A stretch of DNA of 53,361 nt from Clostridia bacterium (lineage in GTDB: Bacteria; Bacillota; Clostridia; Oscillospirales; CAG-272), in contig JAFQDK010000004.1 in the NCBI GenBank assembly GCA_017399305.1, positions 1 through 53,361 of the forward strand. Direction: 5' to 3'. Positions within the stretch are counted from its first letter, which is position 1. Each line of letters starts with the position of its first letter. The position numbers were made by a program, and so were the translations under genes. The notes below the pieces were generated by a model. It ran no database searches and was not told the origin of the DNA. It worked only from the letters and a program-made list of their open reading frames with translations. Shown piece after piece: positions 4,758 through 6,833 of this stretch.

Positions 4758-4910
4758 TTTGGTCTGTCGAAAAACTTTTAGTTTTTCGACAGGATACAAA
4801 ACCGTTCACTCGCGTCGTGCTCAACCGCACGCGGTTTTTAAGGAGTTTTAAAGCCGGCGCATGTCCGTCTTTAAAACATATTTTTATTCATTTGCATACT
4901 AAACACTTTT
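4758..4910. other. 153-bp insert between the 36-bp repeats, with a palindrome
   Basis: Noncoding. It opens with a perfect 13-bp inverted repeat (CTGTCGAAAAACT, arms 4764-4776 and 4780-4792 around a 3-base loop), followed by a CGCG-rich stretch and two AAAAC/GTTTT-rich patches. I recognise no gene. It looks like a small inserted intergenic element between duplicated copies of an ancestral acpT-spoIVA junction. Confidence 0.6.
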
Positions 4911-4950: not shown

Positions 4951-5406
4951 TTTTTCATATACTGATATCATATATTCGCCGTCACACTCTGTATAAAAAT
5001 CAAGCTTTGTAACGTCGCATTTAAGCGAATCTGAAAGACCGCCCCCGAGTGCCTTGCCATAAGCCTCTTTTTTTGTCCACACCTCATAAAACCGACGTAA
5101 TTTTTCTTCTTCGCTACAAGCTGCGGCAATATACGCCTGCTCATTTTCAGTAAAGAAGCGCCTTGCGACACCGGAAGATATCGGTCGCATGATCTGAATG
5201 TCTGCTCCGATTTCTTTTTTCGACACGGCAAGTATAGCACGGTCACCGCTGTGGCTAAGGCTGAAACAAATATCAAGGTCGGCAAAATACGGCTTGCCCT
5301 TATCGGTGCGAAGCACCTTGGCATCACTCACGCCGCAAAGTTCCTTTGCCGCAAGCGGTATAAGGTCATGCGCCTGTGCCGCACTTGAACGGTATAACTT
5401 TATCAT
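4948..5406 (-). CDS. 4'-phosphopantetheinyl transferase superfamily protein
   Basis: Transfers the phosphopantetheine arm of coenzyme A to a conserved serine of a carrier protein (acyl or peptidyl). The 152-residue protein has the metal-binding motif GADIQIM (residues 68-74, usually GVDIE) and the WTKKEAYGKALGGGL motif near residues 111-125, whose KE-K pattern binds coenzyme A. At about 150 residues it is shorter than Sfp (about 225), and the pseudodimer halves are compact. Whether it is the housekeeping AcpS-type activator or serves a dedicated carrier is not clear; no carrier protein or polyketide/NRPS gene is nearby. Its ATG overlaps the divIC stop by 4 bases, so it is the last gene of that operon, followed at once by a terminator. 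Confidence 0.88.
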   Translation of the reverse strand: MIKLYRSSAAQAHDLIPLAAKELCGVSDAKVLRTDKGKPYFADLDICFSLSHSGDRAILAVSKKEIGADIQIMRPISSGVARRFFTENEQAYIAAACSEEEKLRRFYEVWTKKEAYGKALGGGLSDSLKCDVTKLDFYTECDGEYMISVYEK

Positions 5407-5687
5407 TCCTCAAAATCGCTGTGATAAAATATCTCGCCCGGATAGCCATAGCCAAGCTCTCGGCGCGCAACACGGCGGATATATTCTTTATCAAAAGGAG
5501 CGGCAAGCTCTTCCTCTTTCTTAGCAACCTGCTCACTCAGTTTATTTACTTCCTGCTCCAGAAGATCATTCTTTTTCTTCTGTTCATTATACTGCATCCA
5601 GAACGCGCCAATGACAATAAAACCTATTGCGAGAAAAACCACAAAGGCGATACGCACCGAAGCCGGGATATTCTTTTTGTTCTGCAC
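5403..5687 (-). CDS. divIC: Septum formation initiator DivIC/FtsB family
   Basis: Bitopic membrane protein of the divisome, known in Bacillus to form a complex with FtsL and DivIB at the septum. The 94 residues comprise a short cytoplasmic tail, one transmembrane helix (about 11-31), an extracytoplasmic coiled coil (about 33-62) and a C-terminal RRELGYGYPGE segment typical of the family. The start is GTG, supported by AGGAGG about 9 bases upstream; that ribosome site lies inside the 3' end of yabQ, so divIC can be translated on its own. Its place after yabP-yabQ is the conserved Firmicute arrangement. This is the vegetative gene in an otherwise sporulation-related stretch. Confidence 0.9.
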   Translation of the reverse strand: MQNKKNIPASVRIAFVVFLAIGFIVIGAFWMQYNEQKKKNDLLEQEVNKLSEQVAKKEEELAAPFDKEYIRRVARRELGYGYPGEIFYHSDFEE

Positions 5688-5689
5688 TT

Positions 5690-6238
5690 TTACGTACCTC
5701 CTCCGTTTTTACAGTTTTGCCCTTTTTTCATCCGTTTTTGACGTTTTTTGCGAGCAACGATTTTCTTCCTATTATTTATATATTCATTATACCGCGTAAA
5801 AGCCGCGGTGACAATAGGTAATCTCCAAAATTTATTAAAGATTTTTTTAAGCAGCTTTACAGGCAGCATCAGAATATGTCTGCAAAATGCAACAAGCCGT
5901 GACGATATCGCGATAAACAGCCGTCCTAAAGTATGATAATAAACAAAAAAGCCGAGCAAAGCACCAAAAATTCCATAACTGCGCATTCGCCCATCGCCGG
6001 TAAGAAAAAAGAACACGCACATAACTACCGATGCAATTGCAAAAAACAAAAGGTCGCCTAAAACAACATACAAATAACGGAGCAACGCAAAACGTCTGTG
6101 TTTTTTAAATGGGTTCTCGACAGTAACCCCGACAAGTATTCGCGAAAAGCGAATCACATCGTATATCATGCCGAGAAATGCGCCGCATGGCAAGCTGAGT
6201 ATTGCCATCAGCGCAATTGAACTCATTGACTTTTCCAT
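5690..6238 (-). CDS. yabQ: Spore cortex biosynthesis protein YabQ
   Basis: Mother-cell membrane protein required for spore cortex synthesis in Bacillus; the mechanism is unknown. The 182-residue product has hydrophobic stretches near residues 8-27, 54-80 and 88-110, a further amphipathic region, and a very basic C-terminal tail (RKKIVARKKRQKR). The N-terminal LPCGAFLGMIYDVIRFSR motif is typical of YabQ. Its ATG shares one base with the yabP stop (TAATG), so its translation is very probably coupled to yabP. The identification rests on this motif and on synteny with yabP and divIC. Confidence 0.9.
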   Translation of the reverse strand: MEKSMSSIALMAILSLPCGAFLGMIYDVIRFSRILVGVTVENPFKKHRRFALLRYLYVVLGDLLFFAIASVVMCVFFFLTGDGRMRSYGIFGALLGFFVYYHTLGRLFIAISSRLVAFCRHILMLPVKLLKKIFNKFWRLPIVTAAFTRYNEYINNRKKIVARKKRQKRMKKGQNCKNGGGT

Positions 6239-6489
6239 TATTTAACCGCCTTGCCGAACAAGCGTTTCTTTGACGGCTTTACAGAATAATAAACCCCGTC
6301 TATTCTGCCCTGAAGCAACAAGTTGCCACTGTCAGACGACATATTCAATATCCGCATGCCGCCGCCCTCTATCTCCACCTTGCCGTCAGAGGTCATCACG
6401 CTGATAAAATCCTCGTCAAATTCAAGCACTTCGCTGACATCACTCATATTCAATGTGCTGCGATCCTGTATGTGTATACTGCCACCCAT
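6238..6489 (-). CDS. yabP: Sporulation protein YabP
   Basis: Small protein of the YabP/YqfC family needed for spore formation, expressed in the mother cell under sigma-E in Bacillus. The 83 residues include the family hallmark MSDVSEVLEFDEDFISV and a C-terminal G-rich beta-strand region ending in KKRLFGKAVK. ATG at 6489 is preferred to the GTG at 6495 because the GGAGGT ribosome site ends 6 bases before this ATG but directly abuts the GTG. That ribosome site is fully contained in a 14-bp inverted repeat with an upstream partner (6559-6572), see the separate entry. yabQ follows with a one-base overlap. Confidence 0.93.
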   Translation of the reverse strand: MGGSIHIQDRSTLNMSDVSEVLEFDEDFISVMTSDGKVEIEGGGMRILNMSSDSGNLLLQGRIDGVYYSVKPSKKRLFGKAVK

Positions 6490-6492
6490 GAG

Positions 6493-6572
6493 CACACCTC
6501 CTTTTTATAAAGATATGCAAAATAACGTCCGAATAGAAACGGTTTTGCAAATCGCCACAAAAAGGAGGTGTG
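6493..6572 (-). promoter_or_regulatory. Candidate SD-sequestering RNA stem upstream of yabP
   Basis: In minus-strand RNA the segment from 6572-6559 (CACACCTCCTTTTT) is perfectly complementary over 14 bases to 6506-6493 (AAAAAGGAGGTGTG), which holds the yabP ribosome site. A second, nested complement is TGCAAAA with TTTTGCA. A transcript entering from rqcP would carry both arms and could hide the site. The upstream arm also equals the anti-SD at the 16S rRNA 3' end. No terminator-like U-run follows, so a translational role is more likely than transcription termination. Function is inferred. Confidence 0.5.
6510..6538 (-). promoter_or_regulatory. Candidate sigma-E promoter of yabP-yabQ
   Basis: On the minus strand, TTCTATT (6532-6538), a 14-bp spacer and CATATCTT (6510-6517) resemble the sigma-E consensus and share TTTTGCATATC with the spoIVA candidate. 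A start about 7 bases downstream falls near 6503, after the anti-SD arm at 6559-6572, giving a short leader with an exposed ribosome site. Confidence 0.42.
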
Positions 6573-6590
6573 TAAAAAATACGTTTTATC

Positions 6591-6833
6591 TCACTGAATC
6601 ACTTCGTACATTTCTGCCGCATCGGCTTTCTTTGTACTGTCTTTTACATCGGTGACGCGTACTTTCAGCACGCGTTCGCCAAAGGCGATCTCAATAACGT
6701 CGCCAACCTTGACATCATATGATGCCTTTACCACTCTGCCATTGACGCTGATATGCTCGGCGTCACAAGCATCATTTGCTACAGTGCGGCGCTTTATGAT
6801 ACGCGACACCTTTAAATACTTATCTATACGCAT
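6591..6833 (-). CDS. rqcP: RNA-binding S4 domain protein RqcP (YabO)
   Basis: An 80-residue Hsp15/S4-domain protein. In Bacillus, RqcP binds stalled 50S-peptidyl-tRNA complexes with RqcH and drives C-terminal alanine tailing in ribosome-associated quality control. Visible features are the S4 core [16 protein letters not shown] at the N-terminus, [18 protein letters not shown] (about 28-45), and a short acidic tail. AGGAG lies 6 bases before the ATG. It sits upstream of yabP as in Bacillus. No terminator is seen between it and yabP, so read-through into yabPQ-divIC-acpT is expected. The HU terminator lies just upstream. Confidence 0.9.

Follow-up and report, generated by a model that had tools for sequence, protein, structure and literature searches.

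A putative translational insulator around the sigma-E-like promoter of yabP in Clostridia

How can a sporulation gene sit inside a growth operon without mistimed production of its protein? The question is raised by yabP in the window, by which we mean the whole 53,361-nucleotide stretch of contig JAFQDK010000004.1 (Clostridia bacterium) that was analyzed. Its minus strand carries, in this order, mazG, hup, rqcP, yabP, yabQ, divIC, a phosphopantetheinyl transferase gene and spoIVA, with Pfam support for MazG, HU, S4 (rqcP), YabP, YabQ, DivIC, phosphopantetheinyl transferase and SpoIVA, and rqcP is co-directional with yabP (Table 1). Judging from sequence, the interval 6572-6493 is likely to be a translational insulator with a sigma-E promoter at its core, one that would silence yabP in vegetative read-through RNA and be bypassed by sigma-E. 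In RNA entering from rqcP, an arm complementary to the Shine-Dalgarno (SD) sequence would fold over the yabP ribosome site, so that in growing cells yabP would stay untranslated, as would the overlapping yabQ, and the masked RNA could still continue to the downstream genes. During sporulation, sigma-E RNA polymerase would start between the arms, at about 6504, and the resulting transcript, devoid of the anti-SD arm, would allow yabP and yabQ to be translated. Read-through transcription, the translation block, the actual 5' end and sigma-E dependence in this organism are the parts of the mechanism that we infer.

Table 1. Coordinates of the features discussed, in window positions
Feature	Position	Strand	Remark
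rqcP (S4 domain)	6591-6833	minus	stop at 6591; presumed source of vegetative read-through
5' (anti-SD) arm, CACACCTCCTTTTT	6572-6559	minus	14 bases; extended to 6555 in the fold
Nested inner helices	6512-6553	minus	in the main-stem loop, over the promoter; from the fold
Weak sigma-E-like -35, TTCTATT	6538-6532	minus	read from sequence at the survey spacing
Sigma-E-like -10, GCATATCTT	6517-6510	minus	motif; C at 6517; box CATATCTT, preceded by G 6518
Predicted sigma-E transcription start, about 6504	6502-6506	minus	predicted as C of CATA + 13
3' arm, AAAAAGGAGGTGTG	6506-6493	minus	includes yabP SD GGAGG, 6501-6497; extended to 6510 in the fold
yabP (Pfam YabP)	6238-6489	minus	ATG 6489-6487
yabQ	5690-6238	minus	start overlaps yabP stop (TAATG)
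Sigma-A-like promoter, TTGTCA-17-TATAAT	5814-5786	minus	11/12 matches; in yabQ, upstream of divIC
divIC	5403-5687	minus	own strong SD; GGAGGAGGT precedes the GTG start

The original prediction held that 14 bases upstream are perfectly complementary to the yabP ribosome site, and this is borne out: the two arms match exactly and form the longest perfect inverted repeat within 6480-6600. With arms of at least 14 bp starting no more than 110 nt apart, the window as a whole holds six perfect inverted repeats, two of them being overlapping calls at the window's first bases; perfect repeats of this length other than the one at yabP lie at 859, 24944 and 27887. Folding of minus-strand RNA from 6600 to 6440, one of the checks proposed for the hairpin, recovered the stem at -49.2 kcal/mol (z -4.2); the 200 dinucleotide shuffles gave -32.8 +/- 3.9 kcal/mol, and not one was as low. 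The main stem comprises 14 Watson-Crick pairs, one U-A pair and three G-U pairs, 18 in all, and the nested second helix that had been predicted appears as inner helices in its loop. Freeing the SD in read-through RNA is computed to cost 23.7 kcal/mol, the second highest value among the 132 yabP loci of the order that served as our main comparison set. Rfam gave no match at gathering score anywhere in the window, and hence nothing that would assign this leader to a riboswitch or another curated RNA family. A repeated mobile element is unlikely because a DNA search with the hairpin in its own genome, which is about 64% complete, found one copy, namely itself.

Between the arms lies the sigma-E-like promoter (6510-6538) that had also been predicted, present as a motif with a weak -35. 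The sigma-E start is placed by rule 13 nt downstream of the C in a CATA -10. By this rule, the predicted start falls just within the 3' arm, with the 5' arm lying over 50 nt upstream of it, so the predicted sigma-E transcript begins at the ribosome site without the other arm. A sigma-E-like promoter was called at yabP in 127 of the 132 loci, using a score of at least 14 and a -10 no closer than 10 nt to the SD that follows it, with five loci left out. In many loci, L097, L072 and L024 among them, the rqcP stop codon TAA overlaps the -35-like ATA of the yabP promoter.

Masking was quantified as the energy needed to free the yabP SD in read-through RNA compared with predicted sigma-E RNA. The medians were 9.5 and 3.0 kcal/mol, respectively, and the difference exceeded 3 kcal/mol in 102 of the 128 loci in which both could be computed. 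Because longer RNA tends to fold more, 5' parts were swapped between loci to give chimeras. Eleven of the 132 loci were left out of this comparison because the -10 or the SD was weak or the spacing wrong. In the 121 usable loci, median opening costs were 9.5 kcal/mol for native leaders, 5.4 for chimeras and 5.0 for dinucleotide shuffles, with a mean excess of 4.3 kcal/mol over chimeras (p 4e-17) and a p-value of 8e-19 over shuffles. Weak loci, with a gain below 3 kcal/mol, make up 24 of the 121, and 11 of these have a terminator-like hairpin. Thinning to less than 50% YabP identity left the excess at 4.6 (p 6e-12; 67 positive among 74 usable of 82 loci, eight being left out). A second set, outside the first, was found via rqcP: 80 rqcP loci yielded 42 with a YabP match, which became 37 after removal of four duplicates of the first set and one locus without a usable start. 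With three of the 37 left out, all 34 usable loci were positive, at a mean excess of 5.6 (p 6e-11). An effect expected across the whole phylum did not hold on average, as evidenced by a mean excess of 1.16 (p 0.13) in 27 usable of 43 yabP loci (16 left out on the same criteria), one of which, L134, also appears in the set of the order as L029. Loci L181, L178 and L164 are individually strong in that set, and rqcP is not adjacent to yabP in many of its loci.

These swaps bear on one objection, namely that the hairpin is a by-product without a regulatory role, C-rich promoter spacers having happened to pair with GGAGG sites. Any GGAGG site is able to pair with a C-rich stretch, and shuffled and chimeric leaders still take about 5 kcal/mol to open, but native leaders exceed both types of control, and the excess over chimeras persists when redundancy is removed. 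With a fixed cut, and with weak-SD starts left out, the same-operon starts gave -0.05 at rqcP (50/127 usable), -0.06 at yabQ (36/131), -0.45 at divIC (68/110) and -0.16 at hup (52/108), i.e. no swap excess at any of the four, compared with +4.27 at yabP (125/132) under the same cut. Among other sigma-E genes, no excess over chimeras was detected in small samples of spoIIIAA (+0.29, 16/29 usable), spoIVA (+1.05, 10/22) or, within the window's family, the YabP family paralogue yqfC (+0.08, 12/20). Starts could not be called for eight of 30 spoIVA loci and one of 30 spoIIIAA loci, some called spoIVA starts being doubtful, and a weak -10, weak SD or wrong spacing removed 12 of 22 spoIVA and 13 of 29 spoIIIAA loci; eight of 20 yqfC loci were left out too. 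On this evidence, we regard chance pairing as improbable.

Pairing is not exclusive to yabP and sigG, since it is strong (17.0 kcal/mol) in L227, a locus of the spoIVA control. The expectation that the paralogue yqfC would share the pairing failed in the window's family; elsewhere it is strong in five of 15 usable loci, nine of 24 being left out for a weak -10, weak SD or wrong spacing, and for the set as a whole the comparison with chimeras gives p 0.30 and that with shuffles p 0.001. At those five loci (L184, L187, L192, L193 and L194), the anti-SD pairing spans the promoter and the SD costs 13-23 kcal/mol to open. The sigG gene was taken as positive control because the device has been described for it in B. 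subtilis. Sigma-G-like genes of the same family, which score below the NCBIfam cut-off and are named by best match, gave +3.8 with the fixed cut (p 0.004) in 22 of 27 usable loci, and half of these 22 (11) lie above at least 95% of their own chimeras; a start was called in 27 of 30 loci, and five of the 27 were left out. In the sigG-like loci L355, L362, L367, L370 and L371, the anti-SD arms overlap or flank a CAATACT -10-like box.

Related genomes retain the pairing in altered letters. The yabP gene was found in five of six genomes of the genus and 198 of 246 of the family, and in the 132 loci of the order it is accompanied by rqcP in 127, yabQ in 131 and divIC in 110, contig ends having cut some. 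Arm sequences vary: ctcccGCATA occurs with TATGCGGGAG in L024, cctccGCATA with TATGCGGAGG in L097, and ccctttcgCATA with tgcgaaAGGG in L128, and the window's congeners differ as well, L003 for instance pairing GCATACC with GGTATGC. Despite this turnover, 117 of the 156 usable loci have an SD that in the fold is mostly paired with RNA lying 5' of the predicted start; it is mostly free in read-through RNA in 17 and mostly paired elsewhere in 13. In those 117 loci the SD partner has its center 4.5 nt upstream of the C in the -10 (quartiles -8 to -3), within the promoter spacer adjoining the -10. The core of the original prediction, an anti-SD stem with a sigma-E promoter that would bypass it, is accordingly well supported by this comparison. 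Its proposed check for compensatory changes came out only in part. In 17 aligned leaders, 12 cells had changed on both sides of a pair, a count reached by none of 500 shuffles; of the five measures applied, two were not outstanding, namely pairs with a double change (three, matched by 137 of 500 shuffles) and further pair types (reached by 350 of 500), and some rows of the alignment are off register. The 17 leaders were chosen by eye from 22; the swap test is independent of that choice.

The same divergence speaks to the possibility that the repeat is a DNA dyad bound by a regulator. The dyad does overlap the sigma-E promoter, and an excerpt of PMC517825 lists yabPQ as repressed by SpoIIID in B. 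subtilis. A protein site should keep its letters, but the arms differ among species, also inside the window's genus, with complementarity to the SD kept, so that the operator reading of the window's hairpin was rejected and a regulator such as SpoIIID as the explanation appears very improbable. Pairing kept with different letters in many related gut bacteria suggests a working on/off insulator.

A leader might also damp yabP in all of its transcripts, or serve as an RNase III site that separates rqcP and yabP RNA, in neither case acting as a promoter-selective switch. The 18-pair stem of the window would suit either role. RNase III needs stems longer than those of many yabP leaders, which tells against cleavage. 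Likewise, in the 117 loci mentioned above the SD has its partner 5' of the predicted sigma-E start, and in predicted sigma-E RNA the SD opens at the low median already given. General damping has a precedent in B. subtilis sigG, where a smaller hairpin at the ribosome-binding site is present in the promoter's own transcript (excerpt of PMC5942855). Taken together, damping or cleavage is a poor prospect, about as improbable as chance pairing, and the promoter-selective insulator remains the preferred reading. Its computed support consists of the arms, the fold, the promoter motif, the synteny and, in divergent sequences of related bacteria, conserved pairing with a predicted start that would exclude the anti-SD arm.

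The reading that the hairpin instead terminates or attenuates rqcP RNA draws on 13 of the 132 loci, in which a terminator-like hairpin lies between the rqcP end and the yabP SD (in L124, about 150 nt upstream). In the window, however, the 3' arm is followed by CTCATG without the T-run that an intrinsic terminator would have, and the terminator scan lists none at the site; the terminator reading was therefore rejected for this hairpin, and we hold it to be highly improbable. Where terminator-like hairpins do occur, they seem to stand in for masking, the SD-masking gain having a median of 1.1 kcal/mol versus 6.1 in the other loci (p 3e-7). In L048, L107, L295, L297 and L340, drawn from both sets, the sigma-E -10 lies within the terminator-like hairpin, so that a sigma-E transcript would start past the hairpin's 5' arm. 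Terminator-like hairpins of another kind, downstream of the predicted sigma-E -10, were seen in L044, L060, L077 and L082, with CCTCC in the 5' arm in three; these are possible attenuators, although they would halt sigma-E RNA too.

The choice between the two arrangements may depend on what lies downstream. We found divIC in five of the 13 loci with a terminator-like hairpin and in 105 of the 116 remaining ones that had room (p 4e-5), and in a wider count 11 terminator-like loci had divIC and 10 lacked it, versus 127 and 14 of the others (p 1e-4). Seven of those 10 apparently share one terminator at the rqcP stop, so that few independent events stand behind the tendency. An expectation that terminators would occur only where divIC is absent failed, given the 11 terminator-like loci with room that keep divIC, and it is a tendency only; four of the 11 are weak or distant hairpins (L003, L006, L022 and L108), and a block ahead of divIC may be tolerated. 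Across all loci, the median pairing excess is 3.99 with divIC (n=101) versus 0.93 without (n=17; p 0.0075); among loci without terminators no dependence on divIC was seen, at 4.21 (n=96) versus 3.56 (n=9; p 0.375). Use of masking where RNA must continue to divIC fits the terminator and divIC counts, which come from few independent events.

For the window itself, the original prediction had divIC made from read-through transcripts by virtue of its own strong SD. The SD is there, but dependence on read-through is weakened by the near-consensus sigma-A-like promoter in yabQ, because of which divIC need not rely on read-through here. A sigma-A-like site with at least 10 of 12 matches was also seen in the congeners L003, L004 and L006, and sites with 10 of 12 matches precede divIC in about 15% of 110 loci versus 4-5% of controls. 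On these motif matches, divIC probably has its own promoter in the window's genus. Upstream, the hup/rqcP gap holds an inverted repeat, GTCGGCTC/GAGCCGAC, at about 6880-6850, with T-runs on both sides. The terminator scan of the window has no entry for this repeat; it is a possible two-way terminator, and the hairpin and short T-run 3' of hup may lower the transcription that enters rqcP from hup.

Further along the same strand, the region upstream of spoIVA (4950-4690, minus strand) contains two near-identical hairpins, GCAGACGTT..AACGTCTGC, about 190 nt apart. Each copy consists of a hairpin, a short T-run and GCATATC. The terminator-like hairpin of spoIVA has a T-run abutting the sigma-E-like -10, and in the second copy the loop of the hairpin carries a -35-like AATA at the usual spacing. 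A terminator and a sigma-E promoter thus seem, from these motifs, to be merged upstream of spoIVA. Both the domain and an SD suggest a spoIVA start at about 4690, and the listed TTG at 4799 therefore probably lies too far upstream. We give roughly even chances to a broader proposal, in which spore-forming Clostridia have a general class of promoter-embedded insulators, with a hairpin in the -35/-10 region that masks the ribosome-binding site or terminates in read-through RNA only. Such insulators would let sporulation genes sit in housekeeping operons; one design would be common to yabP, sigG, the spoIVA terminator-promoter and, in some lineages, yqfC, and masking would be preferred where an essential gene, for example divIC, lies downstream.

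Devices of this logic have been seen outside sporulation. In the hairpins at ribosome-binding sites of phage T4 early/late transcripts and in the anti-read-through leaders of IS10 and IS200 transposase genes, long RNAs hide the ribosome site, and RNAs from the proper promoter lack one hairpin arm. Those are phage and transposon genes, unlike the sporulation gene considered here. Closer is sigG (spoIIIG) of B. subtilis, for which an excerpt of PMC5942855, citing earlier work, describes a large hairpin in read-through RNA from the upstream operon that is proposed to block translation and that is unable to form in RNA from sigG's own sporulation promoter. The yabP leader has the same logic and the same geometry as that description: its ribosome site pairs with the upstream arm in computed folds of read-through RNA, and an internal sporulation promoter, predicted by motif, starts 3' of that arm. 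The kind of device has therefore been described already, and yabP would, by analogy, be a further case. It differs in joining yabP with sigma-E rather than sigG with sigma-F/G, in having rqcP rather than a sporulation operon upstream, and in that the anti-SD arm is often the promoter spacer or the -10 and reappears across Clostridia although its sequence has turned over.

As for yabP itself, an excerpt of PMC1925097 places B. subtilis yabPQ under sigma-E inside a yabMNOPQ-divIC-yabR operon, and PMC517825, likewise in excerpt, names yabPQ, yqfCD and spoIVA as sigma-E-controlled. The locus studied here resembles that operon, compared by its description, in predicted sigma-E control of yabPQ and in having divIC downstream; the excerpts of PMC1925097 and PMC517825 make no mention of a hairpin. 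An excerpt of the C. difficile start-site paper PMC7438776 does not name yqfC, spoIVA or divIC. Among the literature covered, which takes in few of the subscription journals, no paper was recognizable by its title or the opening of its abstract as concerning a yabP leader hairpin.

If the proposed insulator is real, it would explain how sporulation genes can lie inside growth operons without mistimed protein production. A device of one B. subtilis gene would become a recurring, sequence-independent design, recognizable by SD pairing across a sporulation promoter. A change in one arm, or a compensatory pair of changes, would be expected to switch yabP translation in growing cells, and the presence of read-through RNA from these genes in gut Clostridia during growth would be no sign that their proteins are being produced.
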